From assembly GCA_015143295.1 (NCBI GenBank), contig CM026561.1, forward strand, positions 37,824,875 through 37,888,874: a DNA stretch of 64,000 nucleotides, written 5' to 3'. The position numbers and the translations under genes are program-made. Of the stretch, positions 3,849 to 48,132 are shown in pieces. Each line of letters starts with the position of its first letter. Position 1 is the stretch's first letter. Under the pieces are notes generated by a model that did no database searches, was not told the DNA's origin, and saw nothing but the letters and a program-made list of their open reading frames with translations. This DNA comes from Tetracentron sinense. Lineage: Eukaryota > Streptophyta > Magnoliopsida > Trochodendrales > Trochodendraceae.

Positions 3849-5511
3849 CTTTTTTTTTTATCGATAATCCATGCAAATATATATAAAAATGAAACAACTA
3901 AGCAAGCTACACTGGTGACTAAAGATGGAAGTTCACGAGATCATGAACCACAAAAAGAAAAGAAAGAAAATAACAAGACACCCATGATAGTCCCCTGTGG
4001 GCAGATTAGGCTAGAAGAAGACCCGTTTTCACCCCTCCCTGTCTAGAAGAGACCCAATCCACAACCAAAGAAACAATGCGAGAACAAATTCTATGGGGAG
4101 ATGAGTGTGAATTGTCAAAAACCCTCTTGTTCCTGTCTTTCCAAATTGCCCATGCTACTGCACCCGGTAGAACCCGCCAAATAGTCATCTTTGAACCATC
4201 CCCACTTACCAATTCCCAGCAAGATAAAAAGTTTAGAAAGGAAGAGAGAAAGACCCACTCCACACCTACTCAGGAGAGAAAGAAACTCCAAACCTCACTT
4301 CAACATGACAATGCAAGAGGAGATGATCCACCGACTCTTCCTCTTGAAGACACATAAAGCATCTGTTAGCCAAACTCCACCCTCTGTTTTTCAAGTGATC
4401 ACATGTGAGAATTTTATTTCAATCCGCATTCCATAGAAAGAAAGATACTTTAAAAGGAAGACTTGGATTCCACACAATCCTATGAGGGAATAGGACGGAT
4501 GGACCAATACCGAGCAATTGAAGTAGAGATCTCACTGAAAACCAGTGTTTTAAAAAGCGTGTGAGGCTTACGCCTCAAGGCTTGCCTCGAGGTGAGGCTG
4601 GAGGAAAACACCTCGAGGCTCAATCAAGAGGCTTAAACTCCATGAGGCATACACCTAATGCCTTGAAACTCGCTTTATGCCTATAGTAAACATCTCATAC
4701 ATTAACTAAAATTAAATATCTAGCCACAACTGAGACTTAAATGTCGGTTTTTTTAAATTTGTTTCAACTAGTAAAAAATAACACTAATTATTTTCCGATA
4801 AGGCATTGAAAATGATGATGGTTATATTGGTTATAATTAACACTTAATTTATTATGTTTAATGTATTAGGATTTTAAAACCATTTGAGTCTAATTCACAC
4901 TATTTCCCTAGTAGACATTGCAAAAATTTGGAGTCAGTACTGGCCTACAATGTCATTAACGTTTTGAATTTTTGTAATATTTTTCTTATATTTTATTTTT
5001 TTGTTAACATGAGAGGGCATGAAACTTTCTTTTGAGGCTTAAGCCTCACACCTCGAGGCTTACGCCTCACGCATCTTGAGGTCCTAACGCCTCGCCTCAC
5101 GCCTTCACGTTTTAAAACATTGCTGAAAACCAACCCTTGTTGCCTCTAGAGTCTAGAACATGATCTACTATCCCGTCCACGAGAGACCGGAAGAGGAGAC
5201 CCCAACCGCTCTAAGAGTCTACCAAACTCGACTATCTCCCAATCATTTAAGTTTCTTCTCAACTTGGGATACCAAACTGCCCCCTCACCTACCCTATCCA
5301 AGCAATCATGCACTGTCGCATTCCTATCTCGGGCTATACGGAAGATAACACCAAAATCATCTTGCAAAGTGGTAGCCCCACGCCACAGGTCCTTCCAAAA
5401 TCTGACCTTAGACCCCTCACCCACCTTATATTTAAAAAATGGAACTACTACATTAGCAGTTGACATGATCCCCTTCCACAGTCCCACTCCATGAGGCCTT
5501 TTAACTTCCTT
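3849..5511 (-). mobile_element. L1-type LINE, ORF2 C-terminal part, interrupted by a hAT-like insertion
   Basis: Read on the minus strand, 5511 to 5146 encodes the post-RT part of plant LINE ORF2 (KVGEGSKVRFWKDLWRG). 4263 to 4006 encodes the last segment (AWAIWKDRNKRVFDNSH). The element ends in a poly-A (poly-T on + at 3850-3858). The reading frame has several stops. A 580-bp inverted-repeat element at 4543-5122 splits it. It abuts another LINE in the opposite orientation near 5512. Confidence 0.8.
4543..5122. mobile_element. hAT-like non-autonomous element, GAGGC-word type, TSD CTGAAAAC
   Basis: Ends are CAGTGTTTTAAAA (left) and TTTTAAAACATTG (right), inverted with one mismatch. A perfect 8-bp direct repeat CTGAAAAC (4535-4542 and 5123-5130) flanks it, as expected for hAT insertions. 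About 120 bp inside each end is packed with GAGGC/GCCTC words, often paired as GAGGCTTACGCCTC. The centre is AT-rich and non-coding. The insertion is inside the minus-strand LINE. A related single end is at 31080-31262. Confidence 0.82.
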
Positions 5512-7860
5512 GGGGACCTAACCCGAGGACTTCCTGTACTTGGAATATTAAGGGTCTAGGTAGACAATGTTGAGAATGTTATATTGTGTGAGTTTTATGT
5601 GAGGGCATTTATGTCCATTAATCTTTATGTTTCTGCTTTCCCTTTGATAGTAAGGGTATATTTGTAACTTGGACTTCTTATAAACATAAGTTAAAGGAGA
5701 CTTACATGTTAAGCACTCACTCTCTTTTTCCATTTCTTCTCTTCTCTTATCGTTCCTTCTCCTTCTTTCTTCTCCATCCAAACCCTAGACCCAAACCTCC
5801 TTTCCAACTTGGTACCAGAGCACTTTACGATCAAAGTGGAGTTCCTTTAAAGTAAAACCAAGGCAACAAAGAGAAGAACAAAGGTTGGCGTCTCTGCCCG
5901 TACGGCTGACATCAACAGCCGTATGGACCAGGTTTTGGTTACCTCATTTTGAAGGTATGATCTGGTAGAGTGTTTTAATGTGACTTTTGGAACTGGTTTC
6001 ATGCAATTTGGGTAAGAATTGAAGAAGTTATGATGTTTTTCCCAAACTATAAAAAAATTCCAAGATTTTTTCCATATTGATAAATCTGGCTGTTCCTCTT
6101 AACTTTAAAGTGTTACATGGGTTTAATCACCCCATATGAACCGTTTTTTATGGAGAATTACTTTAGCAATCACCCCGGGGTGATTGGAACTGTTTTGAGT
6201 GATCTACACTCTTGTTTGTGAAGCATAGTTGATGCCTGCAGTCTTTTTTCTTTTTTTTTTGTGTTTTTTTCCAACTTTGAAGCCTTGGTGTGGTGCTAAT
6301 AGCTGGTCAGATGTTGGGGTGCTATTTCCTTCTTTGTATGGATTGTTGAGAGTTGTCTTTGGTTGGTTGTGGTGGTCTTGGATGGTGTTCTTTGAAGTAA
6401 AGGGTGATTGTTGTGTGTTCCATGCACTCCAAGTGTTTGTAAGAATGTGCTAGTGAGCCAAGTGTTGCTGGTTCACCTTTTATTGTGTGGTTAGTTGTTG
6501 TTGGTAATTTTTGGAAGCATGTCAGAGGTGAATCAATCATTGGAGGGCTACCCAATTAGTGGACTTTATCCAATTGGATCGAGTGGGCACAATGTAGATG
6601 CCCCTAATCAGAAAATCACCATTGTTATGTTGAATGGTCCCAACTACCTATCATGGTCCCAATTGGTGAGGTTATACCTTGATGGAAGAGGTTTAGGGTT
6701 GAGGGAGCTTGGCCTTTCCCCATAGAGGCCTATGAGACTATACTGTGACAACAAGGCAGCCATTAGCATTGCACACAACCCTGTGCAACATGACCGAACC
6801 AAGCATATTGAGGTTGACAGACACTTTATTAAAGAAAAACTCAATTCGGGAATCATTTGTACTCCTTTTGTGAAGACTAGAGACCAACTAGCTGACATCT
6901 TAACTAAAGGAGTAGGGAGACCTCAGTTTCACATCATCATAGGCAAGCTAGGCATGCTAGACATTTTTGCACCAGCTAGAGGGGGAGTGTTGAGAATGTT
7001 ATATTGTGTGAGTTTTATATAAGGGCATTTATGTCCATTCATCTTTATGTTTCTGTTTTCCCTTTGATAGTAAGGGTATATTTGTAACTCGGACTTCTTA
7101 TGAATAGAAGTTAGAGGAGACTTACATGGTAAGCACTCACTCTCTTTTTCCATTTCTTATCCTCTCTTATCTTTCCTTCTCCTTCTTTCTTCTCCATCCA
7201 AACCCTAGAGCCAAACCACCTCCTTTCCAACTGACAGGAGAGGAGAGCTATCCTCGAGGCCTTAATTAAGGAGACGAAGACGGATATCGTGGGGTGCAAG
7301 AGAACAAGTTAGAGGTGGTTGATTGTGGGGTTATCTTGAAGTTGTTGGATAGTAGGAACGTGGAGTGGGTTTATCTTCCGGTAGTGGGGTCATAAGAGGG
7401 GATGATAGTGATGTGGGACTTGAGATTTCTGGAGAAAGTGGATCAGCATGAAGGGGTTTCTTTGCTATATGTGTTGTTCTACGAAGTAAAAGACAAGTTT
7501 AAGTGAGTTTGTTCTTCAATTTACGGCCCAAATTCCAGGTCTTTGTGTGAGGCTTTGTGGAGGGAGCTTGATTTAGGAAGGCTTGTTGTACTCCTTATCA
7601 GATCACAAGCCTATTTTGATGGGGGACTGCAGTAGTTCGCATAGGCTGACTCTGTTCAATTTCAAGAACATGTGGCTTCAAGCTGATGGGTTCATGGAGT
7701 TAGTGCAGTCTTGGTGGGGAGCAATCATCTTTTCAAGGTTGGGTTTTGGTGTAAAGATAAAGACCATTAAGGCCAAGCTTAAGGTCTGGAATATTGAAGT
7801 CCTTGGGAAGATAGGGGTGAAGAAAAAGAAGGTTTTCAAGGTAAGGTTTTGAATGTCGAT
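5512..7860 (+). mobile_element. L1-type LINE, ORF2 endonuclease part, split by a copia element
   Basis: 5534-5567 reads TWNIKGLGRQ, the start of the apurinic endonuclease domain. The frame resumes after the copia insertion (from about 7233) as RRAILEALIKETKTDIV, then KLLDSRNVEWVYLP and GMIVMWDLRF. It ends with SDHKPILM, NFKNMWLQADGF and KLKVWNIEVLGK (7583-7852). Several stops interrupt it. The RT part continues at 11993-14367 and may belong to the same copy; about 150-180 residues between the two parts are not visible. Confidence 0.78.
5568..7232 (+). mobile_element. Ty1/copia LTR element fossil, internally shortened
   Basis: Two LTRs (about 5568-5808 and 6988-7232) both start TGTTGAGAATG and differ at roughly 6% of positions by eye, which suggests an insertion some millions of years old under usual plant rates. 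A methionine-tRNA-type primer site TTGGTACCAGAGC follows the first LTR. A purine tract AGAGGGGGAG precedes the second. The interior keeps a gag N-terminal-like segment (NGPNYLSWSQLVRLYL, about 6495-6720) and the end of RNase H (CDNKAAISIAHNPVQHDRTK, about 6740-6985). Most of pol is absent, so the element is broken. Flanks GACAA and GACAG are a near-perfect 5-bp target duplication inside a LINE. Confidence 0.85.
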
Positions 7861-7884
7861 ATCGCAAGACATGTTGCACCTTAA

Positions 7885-8706: not shown

Positions 8707-8714
8707 CACCTTGA

Positions 8715-9329: not shown

Positions 9330-11486
9330 CATGGTTGCATAGTTATTAAAGGCGCTGCTTCAGGCGACCACCTAGGCAACCAGGCACTCTGTTGGGCTCA
9401 AGCAACTTACCACCTCAGGCGTTCAGGTGATCATTATTAAATATCTAATATATATAATATTATTATTGTTTAAGAATAGAAATTTTTATTTTATTTGAAT
9501 ATGATAGTTCGGTAAACAAAAAAATGTTATTTTATATATTTTTCATGTCTTTTACAATATAATATATTAGGATTTGTATATCCAACAAAAATAGTTTGCA
9601 GATAAAAGAATAGACGAACAATGTCAAGTATGTTTCTCTCATGTTAACTTGTTCTCTCTCTTAATTGATGAACTAATTATTCTCTCTCCCTCTGTTTATG
9701 GGTGGACCATATAATCCTCATTTTCTTTGTATGGTTGTTAAAGTACAGTTGGGCTCAAGCGGCCCAATAACAAAAAAAAAACTTTAAATATCCCAAATTC
9801 CTTCTAAGACCCCAAAACTCTCATAAACCTATATTTAAAGGGTTTTTAAAAAAAAATTTAAATAAGTCCAGGTTCCATAGTTATATATTTTACTTATCAT
9901 ATATTATTTTTATTACTTGTCTTGAATATAATCGAGAAAAAGAAAGAAATAAGACTTAGAAGTACGACATCTCTCTTCTCCCCCCTCCTTCCTCTCTCTC
10001 TCTCTCTCCTGTTGGGTTGCCGTTGTTGATTTTTATTTCTCTCTATTTTTATCCCCCACAATCCCTCTCTCCCCCCCTTTGAGCAATCATTGTAAAATTA
10101 ATTTTTTATTCCATTTTTTTTTTCAACACTTGATATCCCCCTTTATTATTCTTAAAAATTCTTTAAAAATGGTTCTATCAAAGTGCATCTTAACAACGAT
10201 GTAATTTATATGAATTTAGGGGCCCTTATAAAAGGAAATGCATCATACATAGATCTCATATTAGGGGAAATTTCTGCAACAAAAATTTCATCAGATGACG
10301 CCTCAGGCTTCCATGGGGTCTGTCGCCTTGACAAACTTGCATGGTTGTCAAGGCGACGGACCCCATAGACGCCTAAGGCGGTAGCTTAAGGCACCCAAGG
10401 CGTCGCTTGATGAACTCTTTGCAATAGAAATCTCCCTAATATGAGATCTATGTATGTTGCATTTCCTTGAATAAAGAGCATACACTTCATATAAATTACA
10501 AAATCTCCATTGTCAAGAGGCACTCTGGTAGAACCATCCTTGGAGACAATTTTAGGAATAATAAAAGGGGATTTTAAGCGTTGGGAATAAAAAATGGAAC
10601 AAAAAAGAACAAAGAATCTACAATTGACTGTCGAAATGGGGGAGGAGTGAGGAGGATAAAAAATAACAAAAAAACAACAACAATTTATTTTGGCAGCCAA
10701 ACAGGAGAAGGAGAGAGAGAGATAAAAGGAAAGGGAGAGAGGAGCGAGAGTATAGGATTGAATAGAAAATAGAAATAGTCCGACAGTCAATGTGAATGTC
10801 GAACAAGTGAGAGAAGAGAGGGGAGAGAGGGAGAGGTCGTACCTCTTACTCTTCTTTCTTCCTTCTTGATTATGTCAAAGAAATGTAAGAAAAATTATAT
10901 AATAGGTAAAATATATAATTATGGGGCATGTATTTATTTAAATTATTAAAGTCTCCTTTAAAGATGAGTTTATGAGAGGTGAGAGGTTTGAGGGCCCTAA
11001 AGGAAATTTGGGGCATTGAAAGGTTTTTTTTTTGTCATTGGGCCACTTGAGCCCAATTATATGCTTGGTCATCTAGGTGACGCCTTTAACAACTATGCAA
11101 AAAAAAAAAGATCATATGGTCCACCCACAAACAGAGGAAAAGAGAAAGACCAATTGATCCACCCATTAAGCGAGAGAGAGGACAAGTTAACATGAAGGAA
11201 ACAAATTTGACACCGTTTGTCTCTTCTTTCTTCGTTTAACTGCAAACTTTTTTTGTTGGATATACAAATCCTAATATATTTTATGGTAAAAGAAATTAGA
11301 AGCATTTAAAATAACATATTTTTGTTGACTAAGATATCATATTCAAATAAAATAAATTTGTATACCCTTAAATAATAAAATATTACATATATCAGATTTT
11401 TAGTAATTACCGCCAAGGCGGCTAGTTGTCTAAGCTCAGCAAAGGCAGAGCGTATGGTCGCCTAGGCGACACCTTTAACAACAATG
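9330..11486. mobile_element. Giant foldback, hAT-like, GCCTAGGCG-word type (2.15 kb)
   Basis: The two halves are imperfect inverted copies about a centre near 10336 (GGGGTCTGTCGCCTTGACAA facing TTGTCAAGGCGACGGACCCC). Outer arms are about 9338-9735 and 11092-11486; inner arms reach from there to the centre. Subterminal blocks are dense in GGCG, CGCC and CCTAGG words. Flanks GTGCCAAA (9322-9329) and GTACTAAA (11487-11494) match at 6 of 8. Open frames inside (such as 10386-10790) are low-complexity and match nothing I recognise. A single outer arm recurs as the element at 11586-11984. Confidence 0.65.
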
Positions 11487-11585
11487 GTACTAAAGTGCGT
11501 GATTTCTCAAGAAAATGAAAAAATCCTTCAATCCCTCAAATTTCTTCAAAATCTTCCAACATACAAATGGAAAAGCAGAGGGGGC

Positions 11586-11984
11586 CATATGTTTGTCAAC
11601 ACCAACAATAAGATGGATAGAGAGAGAGAGACCAATTGGTCCACCTGTTGAGCAAGAGAAATGATGAGTTAACAGAAGGGAAACATACTTGGCACCGTTT
11701 GTCTCTTCTTTCTTCTTCTATCTGCAAACCATTTTTTGTTGGATATACAAACTCTGACGTATTATATAGTAAAAGACACGAGAAGTATATAAAATAACAT
11801 GATTTTTTGTTGACCAAACTATCATATTCAAATCAAATAATTTTCATACTCTAAAAATACTAACAATTTTATATATATATATATAGATTTTTAATAATAA
11901 CCGCCTAGGCGGCCAGTCGCCTGAGCCCAACAGAATGCCTGATTGCCTAGGCGACCGCTTGAGGCGATGCCTTTAACAACTATG
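11586..11984. mobile_element. hAT-like element, GCCTAGGCG-word type, about 400 bp
   Basis: A perfect 9-bp direct repeat GAGGGGGCC (11578-11586 and 11984-11992) overlaps the ends, consistent with an 8-bp duplication. The right end reads CCTTTAACAACTATG, so the terminus is CATAGTTGTTAAAGG; the left starts CATATGTTTGTCAAC. Its body is a third copy of the arm seen at 9338-9735 (inverted) and 11092-11486 (direct), including the shared block TTTGTTGGATATACAAA. It sits at the left border of LINE sequence. Confidence 0.72.
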
Positions 11985-14367: not shown

Positions 14368-15150
14368 TTATGAACTTTCTAGAGAGTCTGAGAGAGCGAT
14401 AGTGAAGGGCCCAACTCAAGAATCATTTAAGAGATATGGGTGGAGAGAACGAGCCATCCTTATCAATGAATCCCTATACCAACTTCCAAAAATTGTACTC
14501 AAATCATATTTACAGCTCAATAGAAGGGAACACCAAAGTTGGAATTTCAAAACCATCCAATGATGCACTAAAACTCTGTATAATGTAGATTTTCATTGAT
14601 CAAATTATAAGGTCTTGATGTGAAAAAACAACACACTTGCCATTATTCCTTCAGCTAGTTTAGACAAATGGAGAAAATGAATGCATCAGAAATAAACAAG
14701 CATTTAAGGTCAGTCATTTGTTTGCATAGATGATTTCTCTGTATTTTTTCTTCATTTTCACACCTGATACAGTCCTGCATATCCAGTATTTTAAACAATT
14801 GGCAGCATCCAAGGGATAGTGAATATATATATATATGCTTTATAATTAAAAAAAATTATATATATATGCTTTATTTGTCCTAGTTGATCCTGATTTGACA
14901 TTAGAAGTATATTGATTTTTAAATGTTAGCCAAAAACTTTGTCTATAAATACTGTTTATTTTCCTATTCCATCCATAAATCCATTTTCTTCCCTATGAGT
15001 TTCAAGTGAGGGTGATCGCGAAAGTCACAGTCAGGCTTTTTCTTAAGTTTGCCCCAGATTAAAAAATGGTGTGGGAGGACACTGCAGATGTCCAAGATGG
15101 GCATGACTTCTTCTAACGCTAGAAGACCATGAGAAGACACATGGGAACAT
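14368..15150. other. Intergenic stretch, nothing recognised
   Basis: Sequence between the LINE 3' end and a GATAC-word repeat. It contains short TA tracts near 14826-14870 and no conserved coding frame. Confidence 0.45.
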
Positions 15151-15510
15151 GGAAATAAAAATCGCCGAAACCGATATGACACGGGTGATACATATAGGTA
15201 TCGGTAGTCCCCTGTACGATATTTATACTGATACGAAACGGGTGATAGGTATCGTTTACTAGTTATGTATGTTTTATATCAATGTAAAATTGTAATTGTG
15301 TTTGTTACATTGTCTTTGAGTCGCTTCTCATGATTTTATATTTGGTAAATTTGGTTCCTATAAATCATTTGATTTAAAAAAAAAAACTTTAATTTGATTT
15401 TTTTTAGAAAAAGAAAAAATTATATGTATCGTCTGAAACCGATACCGAAACTGATATGAATAGGTTTTAGTTGGGACCGATACATCCTCCGAAACCATAT
15501 TTTTAATCCT
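15151..15510. repeat. CCGATAC-word repeat element (ends uncertain)
   Basis: Clusters of CCGATAT/CGGTATC/CCGATAC words lie at both ends (15160-15255 and 15425-15500) in inverted orientation, around an AT-rich core. This is the layout of the other word elements here. No convincing target duplication was found. Related word clusters occur at 17855-17965, 21945-22115, 48310-48425 and 49380-49560. Confidence 0.45.
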
Positions 15511-15707
15511 TGCCTAGGGACCAGAGCATGTCGTGAAAGAAGCACATTGGACGGGTGTGCTTCTACTGTTTTTCCTCCTCATTTCTATACTTGGAGAAGG
15601 ACATGGAACATACTGAGACTTGAACACGAAATATACATTTTTTTTGCCCCATGTCATAACCAAGATTGAATCGCTATGAAAGAGCAAGATCTGTGACTAG
15701 CCCTAGC

Positions 15708-17169: not shown

Positions 17170-17580
17170 CATAGTTGCAAGGAAGCTATGTACAGGGTGT
17201 GAAGCTCGCTTCCCTGGAAGCTCATTTCCTAGATTCGCTTCCTCGGACATACTCGCTTCCTAGGAAGCTCGCTTCCATCGTGTCTCATTTAATAGTTAAA
17301 GGGAGTTGTATGTGTAAAGTAATGGAATAGACCATAGTCTATAGCATACAGTGTAGACTCTAAGCAAATATCGTCGGTTTGGAACCTAAGGTACCTACTT
17401 TTCCACAAAAATCTCATGTAAGATAAAATCAAAGGTATAGCTACTCATAATAACATAATGGGAATGAGTAGCCTATATGTCATTTCTCGCTTCCCATTTC
17501 CTAAGGTTTTTTTGAGTCTCGCTTCCTACTTCTTGTTTTCGCTTTGCTTCTCGTTTTCGCTTCTCACTCTGGTAACTATG
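17170..17580. mobile_element. hAT-like element, GGAAGC-word type, TSD ATTTCAAC
   Basis: Ends are CATAGTTGCAAGGAAGC (left) and TCACTCTGGTAACTATG (right); CATAGTT(G/A)C is inverted. A perfect 8-bp repeat ATTTCAAC flanks it (17162-17169 and 17581-17588). The left 110 bp and right 80 bp are built of GCTTCC/GGAAGC and CTCGCTTCC words. The core is AT-rich and non-coding. Length 411 bp. Confidence 0.82.
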
Positions 17581-21944: not shown

Positions 21945-22115
21945 CTATGTTGTGCATATCAATACGTATCAGTCTTATTGGGAGTGTAGCGGGTCTGATA
22001 CGAGTCATACGACCGACACGATACCAATATGCATCTATGTATCGGGTAGTTCAAAACCCGATACGTACGAACCGATACGGGCTGGTACGTATCGATATTT
22101 AATTCCATAGACACA
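21945..22115. repeat. GATACG-word cluster
   Basis: Dense ATACGTATC, CCGATACG, GGTACGTATCG and GATACGAG words, partly in inverted pairs, in about 170 bp. Same type as 15151-15510 and 48310-48425. Ends and duplication not resolved. Confidence 0.45.
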
Positions 22116-28820: not shown

Positions 28821-29161
28821 ACATAGTTACCAAGTCCGGGTATAGGTATAATACGGCAATGATCCATTCGAGAAGTACGAATATTATACGGCAAAAACAC
28901 AACAAAAGTATGAAAAATTAAAAAAATAATTAATGATATAAATAAATATGAATCATGATACTAATTGATAACAATCATTTAATACGGAATACATGTTTAA
29001 CACGGTAAAAAGTATGACAAAAATATAATACAAAATTCTCGTATTAATCATATATAATACGGCGATAGGTGTATAATATGTAATATGGCAAAAATACGTT
29101 GTTTAAAATTGTGACCCCCTAAAAATATTATACTAGTATAATACACGAATTTGGTAACTAT
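28821..29161. mobile_element. hAT-like element, GTATAATACGG-word type, TSD ACCCAAAG
   Basis: Left end ACATAGTTACCAAGTCCGGG; right end CGAATTTGGTAACTAT. ATAGTTACCAA is inverted at the two ends. A perfect 8-bp repeat ACCCAAAG flanks it (28813-28820 and 29162-29169). The body repeats TATAATACGG, TATTATACGG and ATAATATGG words. Length 341 bp. The plus frame 28580-28921 runs into it and is not a gene. Confidence 0.8.
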
Positions 29162-29545
29162 ACCCAAAGGAGACACGAATATATTTTGATCATCTTTGAA
29201 GAGAAGAATTGTGCACAAGTCTTTGTTTATGAAATTTCTGAAATAGTGAGGAAAGAGAGAACCAAATAATATGTGGAATATATGAAAAGAATAACAATGA
29301 AAACTGAGGGAGAATGATGCAGTCTATCTACTTCAAACAGAAATGTGTACATAGAAAAGTCAATTGAGAAGAAAATAAGGGTGAGATTAGTTGCTGTTTT
29401 TGTCTTCTTTTGTAGTCCTTTCTTTCTTTTTGTTTTTTGTTCTTTTTTTTGTCAAAGCACTTTTCTTGCTTCTTTCAAAGTTGTTGGTAAGTAGTTAGCT
29501 TTTAAACAGTGGTTAATTACTCATTTGGATGAGGATTATCTGACT

Positions 29546-32405: not shown

Positions 32406-32436
<31 letters not shown>

Positions 32437-35400: not shown

Positions 35401-38400
35401 ACCACCTCCACTGCCACCACCTACACCACCACCACCACCATTGCCACCATCACCACAGCACCACCTCCATTGCCACCCCACTCCCCATTGCCTCTGCCCC
35501 CACCACAACCTACATCATTACCACCTCCCACCACCACCCCCATTGCCAACACCCTCTGCCCCACCACCAACCCACACCCACCATTACCACCACTACATTC
35601 ATCACAACCAACTCCCCCCACCTCCATGGCTCCATCACAACCCCCACCACCTCTACCACAAACAATCCCCTATTCCCCTCACGCCCACGTGCCAACTCCA
35701 CCCTCACCACCGCCACCTCCACCCTCAGGCCTCACCTCGGTTTCGTTCCCACTCGACGAAATTGAAATCACTCTTATTTTATTTGGCAGATTTCGACCAA
35801 AATTTTGGAATTTGGCGTGAAATTTCAGAATTTCAGTCAAAATTTCGGAAATTTAAGTTTAAATACTTTTTTAACTATTTTTTAAGAAAATAGTTTACTA
35901 CTCTGTAAACTCTTTTTAATCTATGATATATCTCCACTTTACTGATAAAAAAAAAACTATTTTTTAAATAAAATAGCGAAATATTCTGAAATATTTTAAA
36001 ATTTTGAAAATTTTAAATTTTATTTTAAAAAACAAAATAATAATATTATATAAATATATTAAATTTTGATAAAATAATAAATTTGTCAAAATATTCTGTA
36101 ATTTTCACCGAATTGTTTCAAAATTTCATCCGTATTTTTGTGAAATAATATATTTAATTTTTGAAATTTCAATTCAGGTTGGAGGATTGAAATTGCCGAT
36201 ATAAACATGATTTCAAACCTTGGGCCTCACCGCCTCCACCCCCATGCATTACCCCCACCACCCATCCCCACATTCACCCCCACCCTTACTAGTCTACAAT
36301 GATCCTAATTTTTTCCCATCCAAACACAATTCTACTATTTTTGTTCTTCAAAATGGATTTTGACCGAATGTTTTCAAAGAAGCTCCCAACACAAAATTCA
36401 TTATGAGATTTAGGAATTTGGGAATTGATTATTTTCCAAAATTAGAGAATCACTAGAATTAATACCAAACAGTCTCCTAGGTGATGCCTAGGCCACTGCC
36501 TTGCCTTGTCAAGACCCCTATTGTGTAATTAGGGTCTAGGCAGGCACTCGTTAAGACTATGCTGCCTAATGGTGCCTCGAACTCATCTCCTGAGCACTAA
36601 AGCGCTAGTGACAAAGACCCACATAATATTAGATGTTATTAACAAAAGTAAAAAAATATTAATACAAACACGCATATACATGTCTGGTTATATATATAAT
36701 AATACATTTTTTACTTGGACAAATTTTATTTAGGCTGTTGCATTTGGCTCTCTCTCTCGCCTTTCTCCAAACTATTTCTTTTTTTTGTAGTGACATTTTG
36801 GTCTAATGTATGCTTTATTTCCTAAGTTTATATCTTTTTTCTCAATAATATATGAATAACTTAAAATTTTAAAGGGTAAATTTAGGTCGGCTAGGCATCG
36901 CCTAGGGAACCCTTATCACCTAGGCATCACCTAGACACTTTAACAACACTATTTAGAACTATTTTCGCCTACTCACAAACAACTCTTTCTCCTTGTCACA
37001 AAATTTGAGAGAGGTTATAGAGCTTATGCTAGGTACAAGTGTACAACATAAGGAAACATGATAACCCCAAAGATCTTTTCCAATTATTTATATCCTAAGT
37101 CTTGATTTTCTACTTTCCTTACTTTGGCATCGAGCTATTTTTCCACAGGAACTGCCCTACAATATTGTCACCGCAATAGAGTTTAACCACCAAATTCGGG
37201 ATGGATTGGTGATTTTTGAATAGGCCCGGCCCGAGCCTGACACATTTTCAAGAGGCTTGAAACCCAAATTCAGCCCGATTGACACCTTGCACATCCTTGC
37301 ACAAAAAAACCTTTTCACATTTCTCAACCACTCCAAGAATTAATTCAGCTTCACTTGGAATTTTGAAATTTCTACTTTTAAAACATTTCGTTTCCTGATC
37401 CTTTCCATCATTCGGACAAATCAACTGTCAAGATATACACGTGTACTCGCAGCGTCTTCGATGAAAAGGGTAGATATCCGAATGTTCTCCGAGGTCTTCA
37501 ACTTTAGCTTCCTCGTTTGATGTCCGTTACATCTAATTAGAGTTAATTTAGTTTTTGGTTGATATCTTCAACAACTGGAGCATCATCTCCATCATAGCTT
37601 CTAGCAATGGGAAGAACCATGATCAGCAGTTGATACATGTTACAGATGTTGGTTGTTTCTTTTGAGCCATTACACTTCCTATAGTCGAAACCCACTAATG
37701 AACCTCCAACGGTGATACCAATTGAAAAGGAGGATAACACTTGCAGTAGCAGCAAGCATATATTATCAACCGACCCAAAGTACAGTACCCAAAAACTTCC
37801 TCCAAACGAATAGAAAACAGCTAAGATAGGAATTACCCTTTAAAACACTAGATTCCAGTGATTCAGCAATCTCACAGAGAATAACAACAACAACAAAAAA
37901 ACAATTATAATCTCAAAATTCTGAATGTCTACTGGTTACAACCATTATTTGTAAGATTTTGTTATATAAAAGTCAATTATAACTAGGACTGCTACTTCTA
38001 AAATAACTTCGACTAAGATAAACAGATAAACAAATCCTACTACAACTCGAAACAAGGACTCTTACTTATTGAAACTCCTTAACATATTCAAATAACATCT
38101 ACTTTCATAAGTCCTACTGATGACTACTTTAAACAAGTAAAACAACAATTTTTAGGCAACGACTTCTAGAACTCCGAACTCCTGATTTGACATCACAAAC
38201 TCCTATTGATTACTGTCACATGGCTGCAACATTAATGGCAGAGAGATCCAATAATATTAGTCATGGAATATGGCATAGCTACACTAGCCCACTTGACTTT
38301 GTGATCTTACCCACTATAAATATGGTAACAACTAACAAGTAACAACTACCGGTACGAAGTACCAAACCTTTATTTCGTGTTAAAAATAATTGGATGCTTG

Positions 38401-40814
38401 CTTGTTCAATGTACTTTGTGATTTGTCATTTTCCTAACAGTAACCACGAATCCAATTTCTAAGGGGAAATATTACATTCCCATCTCCTTGCTTTCCTGCA
38501 CCTTGATAACTACTATATAAATTGTTGCAAATTAGGTGTGTTTCCAATATCACTCCCACATTTACTGGTATGAAGAGTAGAATCTAGAACTTTGAAAGCA
38601 GGATGTGTTTCTTTTCTTCTCTCTCATTTTAGTTATTTAACTTTATCTTTTAGTTTGAAATAAATTACTTAATTGTTGTGGTTTTTTAGAACGTGATTAT
38701 CACCAACTGACATAAAATCAGGAAATAAAAATGACATTTTAAGCAATTAACAAATATTTAGTGTCATTTTCAAGTTTGAACTATTTACTGCCATATGTAT
38801 AGCACCATGGCACTAACAGTTCTAATATTTGGATAGTAGTAGAAAAAGAACAGTAAAAAAGCTAATCGAATCATGCACAACTGACTCTCAAGCTGGCCCA
38901 GACTACATGGGAATCTCATCCTTTATACACGGATGTCAACTCGCTAAGTTGATAAGTGTCAAAACTCGTCTCCAAGACCTGGGTTCAAAACCCGTTTATA
39001 CCTGCTAAATCCCTAACAACCATGCTTGCCTATCCGGGCGAAAAGAAAAAGAAAAAGAAAAAAAATCTCATCCTTGACATGAAACTGATTTACCACTTTC
39101 AATTCACTCCATTTGCACTTTAATCTAAACACCCTGAAAGAAAGTTGCAGATGCAGTCCACAAAAAAATGTTCCTAGACATGAGTGTTTAAAATTTATGG
39201 AAATCATGAGAACTGAAAAATCAATACATTAAAATACATCAAATCAAACATTGAGCGAGTTAATACTAGAATGAATCTAGATCCATACAAGGACAAATAA
39301 GACAAAGAAGTGCACAACCACCAAAATGCACTCATTTCAACCCAACAGTCTTAAACTATGAGGCCGGAATAAATAAAAGGGCATTAGCTTCCTCCATACT
39401 ATTAGACCCATAGAACAACAAAAGATACAAATGGAAACATACTGATTGCAGAGATCCCATTAAATTTAAAATAATAGCAAGAATAATATTGACAAAAGAC
39501 TAAAACCAAAAGTTTCAGTTCAAGAAGGCAAGCACTTCAGCAATCAAATCCTACATTTTGAAAGTAAACTTAAACTTCAAACAGCAGTGCACGCCCCAAA
39601 AATGATAAAAAGGGCACTGCCCAAGCAATAAAGCTCAAAAAGGAGAAGGAAACAAGTGAATTTGCAACAGTTCTCTATCTAGGGTGAGAAAAAAGCTCAA
39701 ATAAAGAACATCATAACATATAGAACATCAATGCTCACTCACCTGGTACTACTTTTGGCGGATCTTCCTTCCCATCAGCTGTGCAAGCATATCTCTGCCC
39801 CTTAAACCAAACCAGCTGCGGTGGTTTCGGCATATACAAAGCCCCGTCGGGCAAATTGATGTAGAAACCAATAACATCACCTTCAACATACCCCTCTTCC
39901 CCATACTTCTCCCTCAAAGCCCTATGAACCTTACTTCCATCCACATCCCTATACCCAAAACTATTCATATCGTACCCCACCGGTGCCTGCAAATCGGCCT
40001 TCTCCGTCGACCACCCGAGCCTTGTATGCCCAGTCTCCCCAAGCTTCCAAACCTTGATTTCAAAATACCATGCCCCATCCATAACTCCTCTTGTCGCCCT
40101 AACCATTCGATACCCTTTTGAGCTCCCTGCAGATAATCGATCATCACCCACCTCAACTTTCTCTGCCTTGTAGACCTTTGACAGGCAAATTTTCATTTCA
40201 GGGGTGTCATCCGTTTTGTCAGGGAAACGAGGAATTGGGGTTATAAGAACAGTGTCTTCTGTAGCGGCATGGTTGCCATTGGTTTTGCTTTTCTTTTTCC
40301 CCTTTCGAGAAGTGGATTTCGTCCAAACATTGTTTTTCTTTTTCGACTTTTTCGCCATTGCTGCTGATGCTGCTGTTGGGAGTATCGGTGGGATTGTTTT
40401 GGGTGTCGTTAGTTCTGGTAGCATTGTTTCAGGAGCTTGAGAAGTGAAGGAAGAGAGGGATTTCTGCTTTTTCATTGGGGGGTCCTCGTCTTCTTCGGAG
40501 ATTGAAGTGGGTTTTGGTGATTCTTCTTCTTCTTCTTCTTGGGGCTGTTGGGGTTGTGGTTCTTCATCGTCGTTGTCCTCGTCGGAAATTTCGTCTTCGG
40601 AGAGTTCGTCGTAGACATCTGGTTCTTCTTGAATTTGAGTAGTATGAGGACTGGAGACGGCGGCGTCGGTTCCGGTGCCGGCGCCGATGCCGATGCCGAT
40701 GCCGATGCCGATGCCGATGCCGATGCCGGGAGGGGTTTGATTGATGGGGTCGGTGTTGCTCCAGTCATCGTCTTCGTCTTCCTCGTCTCTGTAAGTGGCT
40801 CTTAGGTTTTCCAT
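31444..40814 (-). CDS. TRO: Ash2/TRAUCO-like SPRY protein (COMPASS-type complex), complete, two exons
   Basis: Exon 1 is 40814-39743 and exon 2 is 31709-31444 (minus). Phase 1 joins exactly, giving 445 residues. The N-terminal 200 residues are acidic and low-complexity, with a (GI)n run at 30-44, acidic stretches at 75-110, and basic nuclear-signal-like KKSKKK and RKGKKKSK at 155-177. The SPRY domain runs from about 205 to the C-terminus ([20 protein letters not shown], then [17 protein letters not shown]; across the intron [20 protein letters not shown] and [14 protein letters not shown]). This is the plant Ash2L homologue TRAUCO, a core subunit of H3K4 methyltransferase complexes in the nucleus and needed in embryo development in Arabidopsis. 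The 8.0-kb intron splits the SPRY domain and is full of transposons. It is a little shorter than the Arabidopsis protein (about 509), mostly in the acidic region. No frame break is seen. Confidence 0.93.
32406..32432. repeat. (CT)n microsatellite
   Basis: About 13 CT units in the TRAUCO intron, followed by GTGCACACGCG and a TA-rich run. Confidence 0.9.
32651..32895. repeat. Tandem duplication, 122-bp period
   Basis: AAACATATCTTAAACCAATC at 32651 recurs as AAACATATCTTAAACTAATC at 32773. Both copies continue with AAGGGGAAC, GTATGTCGACTCAA-like and CAAATAATACCC blocks to TATCCCCTA. Non-coding; origin not recognised. Confidence 0.75.
32896..35043. other. TRAUCO intron, AT-rich part and unrecognised stretch
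   Basis: 32896-34140 is extremely AT-rich with no feature. 34150-35040 has a more balanced composition and several short open frames on both strands that contain stops and match no family I can name. It could be a decayed element body. Confidence 0.4.
35345..35735 (+). repeat. C-rich, G-poor CCA/CAC low-complexity tract
   Basis: The plus strand is almost only C, A and T in irregular CCA, CAC, CCT and ACC triplets and contains very few G. Open frames of 127-187 codons in three phases on this tract are a by-product of stop-poor composition. Confidence 0.85.
35736..36222. mobile_element. hAT-like element, GAAATTTCG-word type, TSD GGCCTCAC
   Basis: A perfect 8-bp repeat GGCCTCAC (35728-35735 and 36223-36230) flanks it; one more C could be shared. 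Left end CTCGGTTTCG, and from the right CAAGGTTTGAAATC. Subterminal GAAATTTC, AAAATTTTGG and CAAAATTTCGG words fill both ends around an AT-rich core. Length 487 bp. It is inserted in the C-rich part of the PIF-like element. A relative is at 47339-48132. Confidence 0.8.
36959..38923. other. TRAUCO intron, proximal part
   Basis: A decayed piece with AGGCCCGGCCCGAGCC and CAGCCCGATTGACACC (about 37215-37290) resembles the GGGCCGGG-type ends of plant hAT elements. The rest is single-copy-looking and non-coding; the minus frame at 37543-37755 is not recognised. Confidence 0.4.
38924..39063 (+). mobile_element. tRNA-derived SINE with 12-bp target duplication
   Basis: A perfect 12-bp repeat AATCTCATCCTT (38912-38923 and 39064-39075) flanks a 140-bp unit. 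Inside are an A-box-like stretch (CTCGCTAAGTTGATAAG) and a B-box-like GGGTTCAAAACCC about 35 bases on, as in plant tRNA-derived SINEs. The tail is AAAAAGAAAAAGAAAA-like. It lies inside the TRAUCO intron, antisense to the gene. Confidence 0.85.
40678..40733. repeat. Hexanucleotide repeat CCGATG in TRAUCO coding exon
   Basis: About seven CCGATG units on the plus strand encode the (Gly-Ile)n run at residues 30-44 of the TRAUCO-like protein. Such a repeat is likely to vary in length between individuals. Confidence 0.85.
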
Positions 40815-42104: not shown

Positions 42105-42870
42105 TTCTCACCCGTGAGGTCATCACATGTCCCTTTTGACACCCCTTAACCGTGGTTAAGATTCATTCCCCATCCTTGATCTTTTTTAATATTAATTTTT
42201 TTTTGAAAATTAAAAAAAAATTTAATTTTTTTAATATTAAAAACAGATTTTTAATATCACCCCTTGAGGTCGCCATGTCTCCCTTTTGACACCCCTAAAC
42301 CATGGTTAAGATTTACCCACCCATTTTTTTTTAAAATATTAATTCTTTTTTGAAAATAAAAAAAAAAGTTTTTTTAATATTAAAAACAGTTTTTTGATAC
42401 CACCCCTTGAGGTCGCCACGTGTCCCATTTGACACCCCTTAACCGTGGTTAAGATTCACCCATCCATCCTTGGCTTTTAAAAAAAATATTAATTCATTTT
42501 TGAAAATGAAAAAAAAAATAGAGTTTTTTAATAACACCCCTTAACTGTGGTTAAGATTCACCCACCTATCCTTTTTTTTCTTTACATTTTAATTTTTTTT
42601 TTTGAAAATTAAAATAAGTAGAGTTTTTTTAATATTAAAAACAGTTTTTTAATATCACCCCTTGAGGTCGCCACGTCTCCCTTTTGACACCCCTTAACCA
42701 TGCTTAAGATTCATCCACCCATCCTTGGTTTTTTTAAAATATTAATTCATTTTTGAAAATTAAGGGGTCAATCTTAACCACGGTTAAGGGGTGTCAAAAG
42801 GGACACGTGGCAACCTCAAGGGGTGACGGTTAACGGGTGTCAAAAGGGACACGGGGCCACCTCAAGTGGT
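42105..42870. repeat. About 150-bp tandem array, left arm, turning at 42762
   Basis: Units start near 42110, 42263, 42408, 42531 (partial) and 42661. Each has TGAGGTCGCCACGTGTCCC, TTTTGACACCCCTTAACCG, TGGTTAAGATTCACCCACCC and a poly-A/T-rich AATATTAATTC linker. From 42763 two inverted units follow up to the LINE. Confidence 0.85.
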
Positions 42871-42880
42871 GATATCAACA

Positions 42881-45800
42881 GAGAATACTTGATTCCCGTC
42901 AAGTTATTGCAGAATGCCAGCTTGTAGACATGGGTTATAAGGGACTTGATTTCACATGGAATAACATGAGGGAAGAGGAAGCTAATATTCAAGAAAGGCT
43001 AGATAGAGCAATGGTATCTATGAGTTGGTTGGATTGGTTTAAGGGTCCTTGAGTTCATCATATCCCTTCCACGACTTCAGATCATGTCTTTCTTCTCATA
43101 GAAGTGGTTGATCAATCTAACCCCAAGCGGCATCGAAAGGTGATTCACCGTTTTAAGGAGATATGGGCTTCCCGACCAGAATGTGAAGATATTATTCGGA
43201 ATGTATGGGAAAGTGAAGTTTCAGATGGTAGTCCTATGTACCAAGTAACTGAAAAAATTAAATTGTGTCGAAACCAACTCATTGTCTGGAGTCAGTCTGC
43301 ATTTCAGAAAGATAGGGAGGTGCTTGAAACAAAAAGAAAAGAGTTAGAAGAATGCATGAAGAACAATAAGGAGAGTCGGTATCAGACAATTATTCATAGG
43401 ATCAAGGAGGAAATTAATGGGTTCCTACTCAAAGAGGAAGTGTATTGACGTCAGAGATCGCGAGCTATTTGGTTATCATCGGGGGATAAAAATACGAAAT
43501 ATTTTCACCAAAGAGCTTCTCAACGTAAGTGGAAAAAAATATAGTGGGGCTGATGGATAAAAATGACAGGTGGATTGAAGATGAAGATGGGATTGGGGTT
43601 ATTGCTACGACGTATTTTCAGGATATTTTCACCACAACCAATCCTTCTCTTATCAGTCGAACTACGGGGGTGATGGAAAAAGTGGTAGATCCAAATCAGA
43701 ATAGAAAGCTTCTTTGCCCATTCACACCGGATGAGATTAAAAAAGCAGTCTTTCAAATGCATCCACCCAAGGCTCCTGATCCGGACGGTATGTCTTGCTT
43801 TTTCTACCAACACTATTGGCATATTGTGAGCGGTCAAGTTACTTCGACTGTGCTATCTTTTTTAAATTCTGGTCATTTGCTTTCGAAGATAAATTTCACT
43901 CATATTGCACTGATTCCTAAAGTTAAAAGTCCTCAACGCATGTCAGAATATAGACCCATTAGTCTGTGTAATGTGCTTTATAAAATAGTGTCAAAAATTC
44001 TTGCAAATCGTTTGCAAAATGTTTTGTCATCTATTATTTCAGATTCCCAGAGTGCTTTTCTTCCGGGAAGGCTTATATCTGACAATATAGCAGTTGCATA
44101 CGAATTGATGCATACTATGAAACAGAAGAGGAAATGAAAAATGGGATGGATGGCCATGAAGCTTGACATGAGCAAGGCATATGACAGGGTGGAATGAAAT
44201 TTTTTGAAAGAGGCTATGAATAAATTGGGTTTTGAAGATAGATGAGTTGATCTTATTATAAGTTGTGTTACCTCTGCAACATATTCGATTTTGGTTAATG
44301 GTACCCCTCAGAGATATATATAACCTACTCGAGGTTTGCGTCAGGGAGATCCTCTATCACCATATCTATTCCTTATTTGTGCGGAAGGTCTTTCGGCTTT
44401 GTTACGGGAGTCGGAAAGACAAGGAAAACTTCATGGATTTTCGGCTAGTGGGTATGGTCCAAAAATCTCTCATATTTTATTTATTAACAATAGTCTTCTC
44501 ATGTCTCAGGCCTCTTCAAATGAATGTCGCAATATTCTCAAAGTTCTTGAGAATTATGAGCAAGCTTCGGGACAAAAAATAAATCGAGAAAATACCTCAA
44601 TTTTCTTCAATCCAAATACGTCAAACGCGGTACAACAAGAGATAAAAGATCTAGTGGGGGTTAACAATTCAAATCCTAGTGAGCAATATCTTGGGTTACC
44701 GGTTATGGTTGGGAAATCAAAAATGCGTTCTTTCAGTGGCCTTAAGGAGAGGGTTTTTAAGAAGATCAGTGGATGGAAAGAAAAAGCATTGTCAAGAGGG
44801 GGTCGAGAGATCTTGATAAAGGCGGTGGCCTAAACCATTCCTACTTACACAATGTCATATTTCAAACTTCCTAATTCGTGGTGTACGGAAACTCAATCAG
44901 GTATTTCGAAATTCTGGTGGGGACAATAAGACTCGGAACATAAAATTCATTGGGTCAGTTGGGCTAAAATGTGTAAGGAAAAGAAAAATGGTGGTTTGGG
45001 GTTCCGTGATCTCCAAGTTTTCAATTTATCTCTCTTAGCTAAACAAGGGTGGAGGCTCCTTCAGAATCTGTAGTCTATGTTCTACCGGATTTTTAAAGCT
45101 AAATATTTCCCTCATAGCTCTTTTATTAATGCTAATTCGGGTTCAAATCCGAGTTATAATTGGAGAACTTTTTTGGCAACTCAAAGACTTATTCAGCAGG
45201 GAATGGTTTGGAAAGTTGGAAATGGAAATTGTATTAATCTTTGGAGAGATAAATGGACTCCTTGGCCACTCACTAATAATCCAGAGGCTGCTTCTCTAAC
45301 ATAGGTTAAAGATATCATTGATCCAGTAACTAGAAAGTGAAACACATCCATTATTGATAGAGTATTTGATGATCATGATGCAACTATGATTAAGGAGATT
45401 CTGTTAAATGATATCTCTGATCCAAATAAGATCATATGGCATCCTAGGAAATTTGGGAGGTTCTCAGTACGTTCGGCTTATCATTTTGCCATTCGAGAGA
45501 AGGAAGCCAATAATAAAGCTAATGATGCAGAAGGATCAAATGCAGCAGATATCAGGCGACTTTGGAGGCGGATATGGGGTCTTGGAATACCAAGCAAATG
45601 TAAGCATTTTGTGTGGAGAGTTTGTGCAGATTCCCTTCCAACAATGGCAAATCTAGTCAGACGAGGAGTTCCAACCGAAAAATCATGCCGCATTTGTTTA
45701 TATCATTCTGAATCTGTGACCCATGCATTGTGGGCTGGCTTGTACATTGGCTCGAAATACTTGGGCGTTACTGAAGGGGAGAGTCCAGAAAATGACTACA

Positions 45801-46206
45801 TTCGAGGATTTGGATTTTATTAATATCATGCTAGATCTTGAATCTCAGTCTTCAAAAAATAATTTAGAATTGGGGATAATGATAGCTTGGGCTATTTGAG
45901 ATTCGCGCAACAAGATACTTTTTGACAATTACTAACTTCACCCAACTCAAATTGTTCAAAAAGCTAAAACTCTTTTAGAAGATTTCCAAGGGTTAGCAAT
46001 GGTTCAACATCTCCCTCCTGCAAATTTCAGCTCAATCTCAACAGGGATAATGGATAATAGAATTGGCTAGATTCTCAATTGGTAGTCTTTGATTTGTTCT
46101 TCTTTTTTTGAATGCAGCAGATTCAGATCTATCCATGACTATGGTTCTTTGTAACTCTTTGTTTTCATTTTGGCAATAAAATTTCTATCTTTTAATCAAA
46201 AAAAAA
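42881..46206 (+). mobile_element. L1-type LINE, 5'-truncated, ORF2 almost to the end, poly-A tail
   Basis: The element starts inside the endonuclease domain (LVDMGYKGLDFTWNN, then ERLDRAMVS). RT blocks follow: IALIPKVKSPQRMSEYRPIS near 43900, SAFLPGRLISDNI, LDMSKAYDRVE and RQGDPLSPYLF near 44340. The catalytic FADD box reads FINN. Post-RT blocks are YLGLPVMVGKSKMRSFSGLK, WKVGNGNCINLWRDKW and, in the zf-RVT part, LGIPSKCKHFVWRVCADSLP. The frame stays aligned over long stretches but has about ten stops, mostly where Trp or Gln is expected. A poly-A closes it at 46198-46208. It is inserted in the right arm of the Mutator-like element. Confidence 0.88.
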
Positions 46207-46209
46207 AAC

Positions 46210-46960
46210 TGTTTTTAATATTAAAAAAACTCTAATTCTTTTTTTTTTTAATATTCAAAAATGAATTAATATTATTTTTAAAAAGCCAAGGATGGGCGGG
46301 TGAATCTTAATCACGGAATAAGGGGTGTCACAAGGGACACGTGGTGACCTCAAGGGGTGATATTAAAAAACTGTTTTTAATATTAAAAAAACTGTAATTC
46401 TTTTTTTTTAAAATTTTTATTTAAAAAAAAAAAGCCAAGCATGGGCGGGTGAATCTTAACCACGGCTAAGGGGTGTCAAAAGGGACACGTGGTGACCTCA
46501 AGGGGTGATATTAAAAAACTGTTTTTAATATTAAAAAAACTCTATTTTTTTTTTAATTTTCAAAACAAAAAATTAATATGTATAAAAAAACAAGGATATG
46601 TGGGTGAATCTTAACCACGGTTAAGGGTGTCAAAAGGGATATGTGACGACCCCAAGGGGTGATATTAAAAAACTCTATTTTTTTTTAATTTTCAAAAATG
46701 AATTAATATTTTTTTTTAAAGCCAAGGATGGGTGGGATAATCTTAACCATGGTTAAGGGGTGTCAAAAGGGACACGTGGCGACCTCAAGGGGTGGTATTA
46801 AAAAACTGTTTTTAATATTAAAATACTCTAATTTAATTTTCAAAAAAGAATTAATATTTTCTTAAGAAAAAACAAGGATGGGTGGGTGAATCTGAACCAT
46901 GGTTTAGGGGTGTCAAAAGGGACACGTGGTGACCTCACGGGTGAGAACCAGATTTTTAAA
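46210..46960. repeat. About 150-bp tandem array, right arm (inverted)
   Basis: Units carry TTAACCACGGTTAAGGGGTG and AAAGGGACACGTGGTGACCT near 46330, 46490, 46645, 46780 and 46935. They are inverted copies of the left array, with the same AT-rich linkers. Four of the five keep an intact ACACGTGG core. Confidence 0.85.
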
Positions 46961-47121: not shown

Positions 47122-47212
47122 GGATTCGGATTCTCTTGGCAACAGCCGAGAGGTGCTCTCGGGCAGCCATACATCATGCAGCCAGCGGCAGGTGGCTGGA
47201 GAATCCGAAGCC
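47122..47212. mobile_element. 91-bp miniature inverted-repeat element, TSD TTATTTTA
   Basis: Ends GGATTCGGATTCTC and, from the right, GGCTTCGGATTCTC (one mismatch). A perfect 8-bp repeat TTATTTTA flanks it (47114-47121 and 47213-47220). The interior holds GCAACAGCCGAGAGGTGCTC and CAGCCAGCGGCAGGTGGCTG, GC-rich against an AT-rich setting. The opposite arm of the Mutator-like element lacks it. Confidence 0.8.
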
Positions 47213-47338
47213 TTATTTTAAAAAGTAAGGGTATTTAATGTATTTTTTGAAAACTGAGGGGTCTATATGTATTTTCGTCAAACCTCAGGAGATGAAATGC
47301 ATTTTCTCCTTTCTTATTTATGAAAAGTCGGAAACACC

Positions 47339-48132
47339 CAAGGTTAAAATTTCGAAATTTCACACGAAATTTCGAATAACATCTTGCCGAAATCTCATTT
47401 AATAAAATATTATTTTGATATTTTATCCGAAAATTTCGCCGAAATATTTCTAAATTTTGGGTTTTTAATTTCGAAATTTCGGCCGAAATTTAATGACTTT
47501 TTTTATAAAAAAAAATTAAGTGATTTTTATATATTTTTGTACATAGTATTAAATATATATTTATATATTTAAAATACGTAATTTACTAGTATATTACTAT
47601 ATTATACTTTATTAAAAAAATCACTGAAAATATAGGAATATATTTACTAGTATATTAAATATAATAATATACTTTAAAATATATAATTTTAATGATTTTT
47701 TTTACTTTTCAAGGGAGTCGAACAGAATATTTTGAGCATATTATTTTCTAAATATATATATTTTTTAAAATACAAAATATAATAATATACTATTTATGTA
47801 TAGTTTATATTCTCTTTATAAAGTATAATAATATACTATTCATAGTATACTTCATTTCATGTATACATATTAATATATCATATAGTTATAAACTATAGTT
47901 TATATACTCTTTATAAAGTATAATAATATACTATTCATTGTATATTTTTTAAACTATAGTTTATAAAGTATAATATAGTAATATACTAGTAAATTATGTA
48001 TTTTAGATTTTAAACATATAAAAATATATTTAATACTATATATCGTCCCAAATTCTCTCTTCCAAAAATACACCCATTTCGATATTTGGGGGGGGTATCC
48101 AAAACTGAAATTTCGCAAAATTTCAAAGCTTG
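47339..48132. mobile_element. GAAATTTCG-word element in the filled locus
   Basis: Left CAAGGTTAAAATTTCGAAAT and right TTCGCAAAATTTCAAAGCTTG-like ends are inverted. GAAATTTCG and CGAAATTTCGG words fill 47345-47485 and 48100-48130; the core is AT-rich with TATAATAATATACTA repeats. The related locus at 49027-49560 lacks it, with GAAACACCCCTCCA at the join. No 8-bp duplication can be read, unlike its relative at 35736-36222. Confidence 0.65.

Follow-up and report, generated by a model that had tools for sequence, protein, structure and literature searches.

How can a set of small transposons keep similar ends when, just behind those ends, each group carries arrays of a different palindromic word? 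The question is raised by a stretch of 64,000 nucleotides of the Tetracentron sinense genome (contig CM026561.1, positions 37,824,875 to 37,888,874), referred to here as the window, in which a sequence-only reading had recognised hAT-like miniatures built on six words: GAGGC (family F1), GAAGC (F2), GTATAATACGG (F3), GAAATTTCG (F4), GCCTAGG/GCCTCAGG (F5) and CGATACG (F6). It had suggested that a single superfamily diversified its word arrays, perhaps in step with different transposases. We compared each claimed element with its copies in the 1.16-Gb genome (the searches score the best 40 matches, or the best 150 for families, so that copy numbers are lower bounds). The outcome supports this suggestion, as three of the six words sit at the 3' ends of DUF659-type genes with matching tips. 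The elements are probably non-autonomous members, either miniature or internally deleted, of one plant hAT group with DUF659 transposases, in which each subgroup places its own word on a common ruler.

The first line of evidence comes from the transposase genes. The genome was searched for DUF659 (PF04937), the best 150 loci were scored (many of them with long frames), and the 3' regions of 12 of these genes were read. Nine of the 12 finish in a word array, and the words are three from the window (GAGGC, GCCTCAGG and CGATACG) and two new ones (ACTCGG and GATTCG). The gene at L101 is followed by GAGGC words and by CGTTTTAAAACATTG, with which the family of the 4543 element also ends on its right side, and L107+L108 by GCCTCAGGCG words and CACCTGGTCGCCTTGACAACTATG, which matches the 3' end of the GCCTAGG family, CATAGTTGTCAAGGCGACCAGG. 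GATTCG words with a CAAGGTTGTTAAA end are found at L106+L109 and at L110, and ACTCGG words with a CAGTGTT..AAAA end at L103, L104, L111 and L113. ACTCGG accounts for 4 of the 9 DUF659 ends read, more than any other word, and the sequence-only reading names no such word for the window. Downstream of the DUF659 domain of L099, and on into L100, we found a PF05699 hAT dimerisation domain (E 7e-12, in L099), a tail, and then CGATACG words and a CCGATATTTTGAACCATG end. A search for autonomous hAT copies with the same ends, proposed with the original reading, was thus successful for GAGGC, GCCTAGG/GCCTCAGG and CGATACG, and gave no match for GAAGC, GTATAATACGG and GAAATTTCG within these 12 3' regions. 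In the F1, F5 and F6 groups PF04937 lies upstream of the word-bearing 3' end on the same strand; a C-terminal dimerisation domain on the same-ended element was found in the CGATACG group only, F1 and F5 showing just DUF659 upstream. The DUF659 domain is followed by the word end at about 1.8-1.9 kb in the GAGGC, GCCTCAGG and ACTCGG groups and at about 2.6 kb in the CGATACG group, with two outlying ACTCGG-group loci at 3.1 and 5.0 kb. Furthermore, most genome matches to the 3' regions of L101, L103 and L100 stop at the predicted tip or a few bases off.

When the genome was searched with four of these 3' regions (best 40 matches or fewer per query) and the matches were intersected with the DUF659 list, 43 of the 150 loci could be assigned to one of four words (GAGGC 9, ACTCGG 11, GCCTCAGG 8, CGATACG 15) and none to two words, which is partly expected because one element has one 3' end; given the number of matches taken per query, the 107 unassigned loci are not negatives. 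The DUF659 domain scores of the CGATACG (185.9-193.5) and GAGGC (202.6-219.5) groups are disjoint, and those of GCCTCAGG (195.2-205.8) and ACTCGG (196-215.6) both overlap GAGGC, so that domain scores are no substitute for a tree. Along the 3' end, eleven CGATACG matches other than the query itself show 98-100% identity, and nine of these follow a DUF659 frame of 607-617 codons; such identity points to recent activity of the CGATACG group. In the transposase of this group (L099, 1140-2142) the dimerisation domain is followed by a long C-terminal tail that is acidic and rich in Gly and Tyr. The L099/L100 tail matches 4 of the 16 loci obtained with the CGATACG query (L074, L072, L066 and L075; E up to 0.01) and neither the other loci examined nor the window, and the upstream transposase pieces match none. 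In these four non-autonomous loci the remnants of the transposase C-terminus lie between word-bearing ends, with duplications of 8/8 (L074), 7/8 (L075), 7/8 (L072) and 6/8 (L066). The CGATACG group therefore includes deletion derivatives of the L099/L100 transposon.

The second line of evidence is the placing of the words. Counted from the tip, the C of the word's CG stands at 28, 33, 58, 72 and 79 in L101 (GAGGC), at 32, 57, 70 and 79 in L107 (GCCTCAGG), at 15, 21, 33, 59, 67 and 78 in L100 (CGATACG), at 23, 28, 33, 59, 67 and 78 in L103 (ACTCGG), and at 20, 25, 33, 59, 71 and 78 in L110 (GATTCG). The recurrent 3' slots are thus about 21-23, 28, 33, 58-59, 67-72 and 78-79 from the tip. Across these five groups, where every end was oriented by its transposase gene, there are 32 word coincidences within 1 bp where 9.8 are expected (0 of 20,000 rotations reach 32), and 15 exact ones where 3.3 are expected (2 of 20,000). 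The coincidence persisted without L107 (22 against 6.7; 0 of 20,000), for CG dinucleotides alone (49 against 28.2; 1 of 20,000), and under all eight choices of transposase-derived ends (28-33 against 9.7-12.8; 0 of 4000 each). The L106/L109 anchor was moved by one base in the ruler analyses, and F2 and F3, whose 3' ends were picked by their resemblance to the ruler, are excluded from the five-group test. The letters in the slots are largely uniform inside a group and different between groups (GAGG-CG, GTAT-CG, AACT-CG or GACT-CG, AAAT-CG); the GAAGC family has GAAG-CG, and the GTATAATACGG family mostly (A/T)ATA-CG or GTA-CG. Once the words are set aside, the groups are identical to one another at near-chance levels (0.08-0.36 over 13-46 positions).

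The ruler could also be a matter of plain common descent, ancestral CpGs having kept their place as the letters drifted, with the uniformity of the words due to slippage or gene conversion and not to selection by a new transposase. Such a history is suggested by the tips and fits the near-chance identity outside the words, which long drift would produce; in addition, the identity of the whole ACTCGG and GATTCG stretches (0.41) is slightly above every shifted comparison (maximum 0.38). It sits badly, however, with the same letters filling most slots within a group although spacing, which slippage would disturb, is kept, and with the depletion of CpG elsewhere (observed/expected 0.54 in the window versus 0.75-3.26 at the 3' ends), and we consider it unlikely. 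That the same CpG-rich ends are targets of host factors or of DNA methylation, instead of a transposase, is very unlikely in our view: the slots of the DUF659 groups do contain CG and the 3' ends are CpG-enriched, but such targets would leave unexplained both the different word of each transposase group and the parallel with Ac, Hermes and Herves.

The words are also concentrated at the ends of the elements. They crowd into the last 120 bp, and 120-bp samples from the middle contain none (8 copies of F1, 8 of F2, 6 of F3 and 14 of F5), in agreement with the subterminal enrichment that had been claimed. Per 100 bp, densities in the last 120 bp, the middle and the window are 5.36, 0.00 and 0.11 for GAGGC in F1; 4.22, 0.00 and 0.14 for GAAGC in F2; 1.32, 0.00 and 0.02 for GTATAATA in F3; and 1.34, 0.00 and 0.03 for GCCT[C/A]?AGG in F5. 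Between these four families the end densities are at most 0.33, save for GAGGC in F5 (1.43). The idea that each word is private to its group is therefore too strong, and wholly private words had to be given up, F1 and F5 having the common core GAGGCG. Arrays at both ends and none in the middle samples are difficult to reconcile with a scheme in which one or a few transposases recognise the shared tips only and move all families, the arrays being passengers from different founders. This scheme also has to contend with five words each standing at DUF659 gene 3' ends, with slots that coincide between words, and with the binding of such repeats by the Ac, Hermes and Herves transposases (here and below we draw on extracts of the papers cited). 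Although the tips are similar across the groups, and some maize Ds1 elements without AAACGG repeats still transpose (PMC3260210), we hold it to be quite unlikely that tips alone are recognised.

Under the preferred reading, that of one hAT group with a word for each subgroup, the elements of the window are the following.

4543-5122, + strand: F1, GAGGC-word hAT miniature of 580 bp; ends CAGTGTTTTAAAA / CAATGTTTTAAAACGTGAAGGCG; duplications CTGAAAAC at 4535-4542 and 5123-5130; a DUF659 gene 3' end has the same right end and word.
9338-11984, no strand assigned: F5, nest of GCCTAGG/GCCTCAGG-word copies in both orientations, enclosing the claimed 11586-11984; family members of about 1.1 kb have 8-bp duplications, and the 3' end is found at a DUF659 gene.
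15148-15512, no strand assigned: F6a, degraded CGATACG-word element; ends CATGGAAATAAAAATCG / CAAGGATTAAAAATATGG, compare the DUF659 gene end CATGGTTCAAAATATCGG; duplication 5/8 by eye.
17170-17580, + strand (orientation by resemblance to the 3' ruler): F2, GAAGC-word hAT miniature of 411 bp; duplications ATTTCAAC.
21945-22115, no strand assigned: F6b, degraded CGATACG-word fragment; of 15 genome relatives retrieved with it, 4 have DUF659 transposase C-terminus remnants.
28822-29162, - strand (orientation by resemblance to the 3' ruler): F3, GTATAATACGG-word miniature of an old family; ends CATAGTTACCAA; duplication cccaaaga/cccaaagg.
35736-36222, no strand assigned: F4, GAAATTTC-word element; end CAAGGTTTGAAATC, duplication GGCCTCAC.
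36460-36950, no strand assigned: decayed GCCTAGG-type copy; right end AGTGTTGTTAAAGTG at 36950, left limit by eye; replaces the claimed 35052-36950.
47339-48132, no strand assigned: F4-type element; CAAGGTTAAAATTTCG / CAAGCTTTGAAATTTTGCG ends flanking GAAATTTCG arrays, read by eye; no duplication seen.

Taken together, most of the word-type elements with 8-bp repeats that had been described were recovered, with corrections. The boundaries of F1 and F2 proved exact, each with a perfect 8-bp duplication. The F3 element had been placed at 28821-29161; its boundaries are off by one, and its duplication is 7/8 and not perfect. For 11586-11984 we confirm the right end and find a degenerate left end and a duplication that is ambiguous by one base (gagggggc/agggggcc); the usual member of this family measures about 1.0-1.1 kb. 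The duplication claimed for F4 is present, yet it lies in a flank rich in CCTCAC/CCACC, and among the genome loci L025-L032 three of eight give a 6-7/8 duplication with the CAAGGTTTGAAATC end (best of several end pairs). CGATACG arrays do occur at 15151-15510 and 21945-22115, in copies that are degraded and have no good duplication. The claimed 35052-36950 was rejected as a single element: the window holds six occurrences of ATTTAGAA, two of them near 35044-35106, no end is present on the left, and a decayed GCCTAGG-type copy seems, by eye, to fill about 36460-36950. Searched by itself, the window yields only two pairs of CA..GTT-type ends with a duplication of at least 7/8, those of the elements at 4543 and 17170 (the displaced controls give 0.75 pairs on average and up to 3), and the case for the remaining elements therefore depends on genome copies.

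In those copies, duplications of at least 7/8 were found in 33 of 41: 8 of 8 for F1 (all 8/8), 7 of 8 for F2, 16 of 19 for F5 and 2 of 6 for F3, most F3 copies thus failing to show the 8-bp duplication of hAT elements. With F1, F2 and F5 only, 31 of 35 copies reach 7-8/8 against 0 of 350 displaced controls, the identical comparison moved outward by 20-110 bp; over F1, F2, F3 and F5 no displaced control (0 of 410) reaches the score. Two F3 rows were omitted (L022 and L024, where the match does not run from end to end). The 30 F5 rows comprise 15 with 8/8 duplications, 2 with 7/8, 2 with 6/8 and 11 without an end pair; L043 and L052 among them are one place, and the duplication test took 19 loci, omitting the window's L033, nine more without an end pair, and L052. 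The duplications have T at position 2 in 25 of 33 and A at position 7 in 25 of 33, with two of the 33 (L046 and L051) probably one duplicated insertion. This nTnnnnAn preference is of the Ac type, and the terminal inverted repeats (TIRs) are short and start CA/TA, as in hAT elements. These 8-bp duplications, with their preference, support membership of the hAT superfamily. In addition, F1, F2 and F3 are short, non-coding (judged from one tblastn), high in copy and homogeneous in length, as expected of miniature inverted-repeat transposable elements (MITEs); their copies are the best 40 of 3199, 3771 and 1910 candidates, respectively. F4 does not show this pattern clearly. The GAGGC, GAAGC and GCCTAGG elements are high-copy, and the GTATAATACGG family is judged old because its copies are 75-83% identical.

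A further word belongs to other genes. The 3' regions of 20 PF05699 genes, chosen among the high scorers of the best 150 (many with long frames), were examined: 11 carry AGGGCC arrays, which follow the dimerisation domain at a distance of about 300-500 bp (L081, L082, L084, L085, L087-L089 and L092-L095), 10 of them aligned on TAGGG(C/G)TGTCAAAGGGC-type ends, and the other nine showed no clear array. Between the best 150 PF05699 and the best 150 DUF659 loci, no pair lies within 6 kb. AGGGCC is one word tied to one transposase group, separate from the DUF659 groups. That unrelated hAT families converged on similar tips, the word groups then being without common origin, could be argued from this group, which is clearly apart with its different tips (TAGGG) and high-scoring PF05699 domain. 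For the five word groups of the main set, which have the DUF659 domain, similar tips and 3' slots in common, we find such convergence highly improbable.

Beyond the tips, duplications, end-enriched words, arrays at transposase gene 3' ends and coincident slots observed here, we infer a model in which each family is presumably mobilised by its own transposase subgroup. The common tip (CAnnGTT..AAA, with 8-bp duplications) would be cut by shared chemistry, and would be shared between families because the catalytic machinery is. The word array behind it would be the recognition code, presumably read by an N-terminal zinc finger (BED in other hATs), and the words would recruit a multimeric transposase via its DNA-binding domains at set distances; near-fixed 3' slots are what a rigid multi-subunit complex presenting several such domains would give. 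From one subgroup to the next, the three or four letters that precede the CG would change together in the slots, and a subgroup with an altered finger would need the matching word in its slots. Whether one plant hAT group made several distinct transposition codes in one genome in this way, by rewriting the slot word along with the DNA-binding domain with geometry fixed and letters exchangeable, seems to us evenly balanced.

Several results weigh against the reading of one DUF659 group with a word for each subgroup. Three of the 12 DUF659 3' regions (L102, L105 and L112) have no array or end, and among these 12 we found no autonomous copy for the GAAGC, GTATAATACGG and GAAATTTCG groups; GAAGC and GTATAATACGG are tied to the others by duplications, tips and, weakly, slot positions, and GAAATTTCG by tips alone. 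The GAGGCG shared by F1 and F5 means that a change of word is not always paired with a change of subgroup, and DUF659 match length does not split all the groups (ACTCGG stands in L104, at 456 nt, as well as in loci of mostly 453 nt). Slots are also missing, 33 and 78 in L104 and 21 in L107. Held-out F3 copies gave mixed results against the ruler (1, 2, 8, 16, 17 and 21 of 88 rotations at tolerance 1, with the 3' end chosen after looking), the agreement being clear in the first two copies and weak in the other four, and the controls were uneven (5' ends 8, 10, 26 and 77 of 88; AGGGCC group 16 of 88). The 5' ends share no ruler of their own: 957 of 5000 rotations reached the observed value at tolerance 1 and 836 of 5000 at tolerance 0, and a 5' ruler was rejected as its coincidences are not above chance.

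Known hAT systems offer partial precedents. Ac/Ds of maize makes 8-bp duplications, and Tag1, an Arabidopsis hAT, has a CAATGTTTT-type tip and subterminal motifs with a zinc finger as reader. Ac/Ds resembles the present elements in its short tips, its non-autonomous derivatives and its transposase-bound subterminal hexamers ending in CGG (AAACGG; PMC3260210); it differs in that one word is reported there, whereas at least five stand at DUF659-type ends in one genome here, on a common 3' ruler. Hermes of the house fly parallels the asymmetry and exact phase seen here: its BED domains read subterminal repeats arranged rigidly and at precise spacings, in a pattern that is not the same at the two ends; the repeats are described as 'precisely positioned', and cleavage is impaired when they are shifted by 1 bp (PMC10368747). 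In contrast to the ruler at the 3' end described here, in Hermes a single site, AAG(T/C), is used and the left end is bound, and the extract describes no word-swapped sister families (PMC10368747). Herves of Anopheles also has a repeated, transposase-bound subterminal motif (CG/AATTCAT), and its authors state that hAT transposases bind regions of differing sequence (PMC3143072). The CGATTC words of the GATTCG group (L106, L109 and L110) resemble the Herves binding motif CGATTCAT; Herves is an insect family, however, and the resemblance may be chance. The hAT elements and MITEs of grapevine and Brassica nigra have 8-bp duplications, short TIRs, and autonomous and defective copies as here, but the term 'subterminal' occurs 0 times in either main text (PMC2528002, PMC7385995). 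From these extracts, family-specific subterminal repeats bound by hAT transposases (Ac, Hermes, Herves) are already known; among the titles and abstract openings searched in an open-licence collection, none describes hAT sister families that share a genome, resemble each other in tips and slots, and have swapped words.

How a protein that must bind many sites at once can change its specificity has long been asked about transposases and transcription factors. The present genome brings together sister families whose transposase frames are open, along with several words and with non-autonomous partners. Finger, word and spacing are therefore directly comparable and swappable, and the change of a recognition code by a selfish element is made testable. 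A practical rule is also suggested, in which tip, CG ruler and word together could match orphan hAT miniatures with their transposase.

Finally, three other features of the window deserve mention. Within the GAAATTTCG element, positions 47592-47983 hold an AT-rich inverted repeat with 14-bp perfect arms TATTACTATATTAT, flanked by TACTAGTA. Inverted AAGGGGTGTCAAAAGGGACACGTGG-type arrays at 42111-42826 and 46203-46688 stand around reverse-transcriptase-like frames (43529-44833), and are possibly a further word-type hAT end set or a nested repeat. On the - strand, an open frame of 359 amino acids at 39735-40814 resembles, by eye, a plant SPRY-domain gene.

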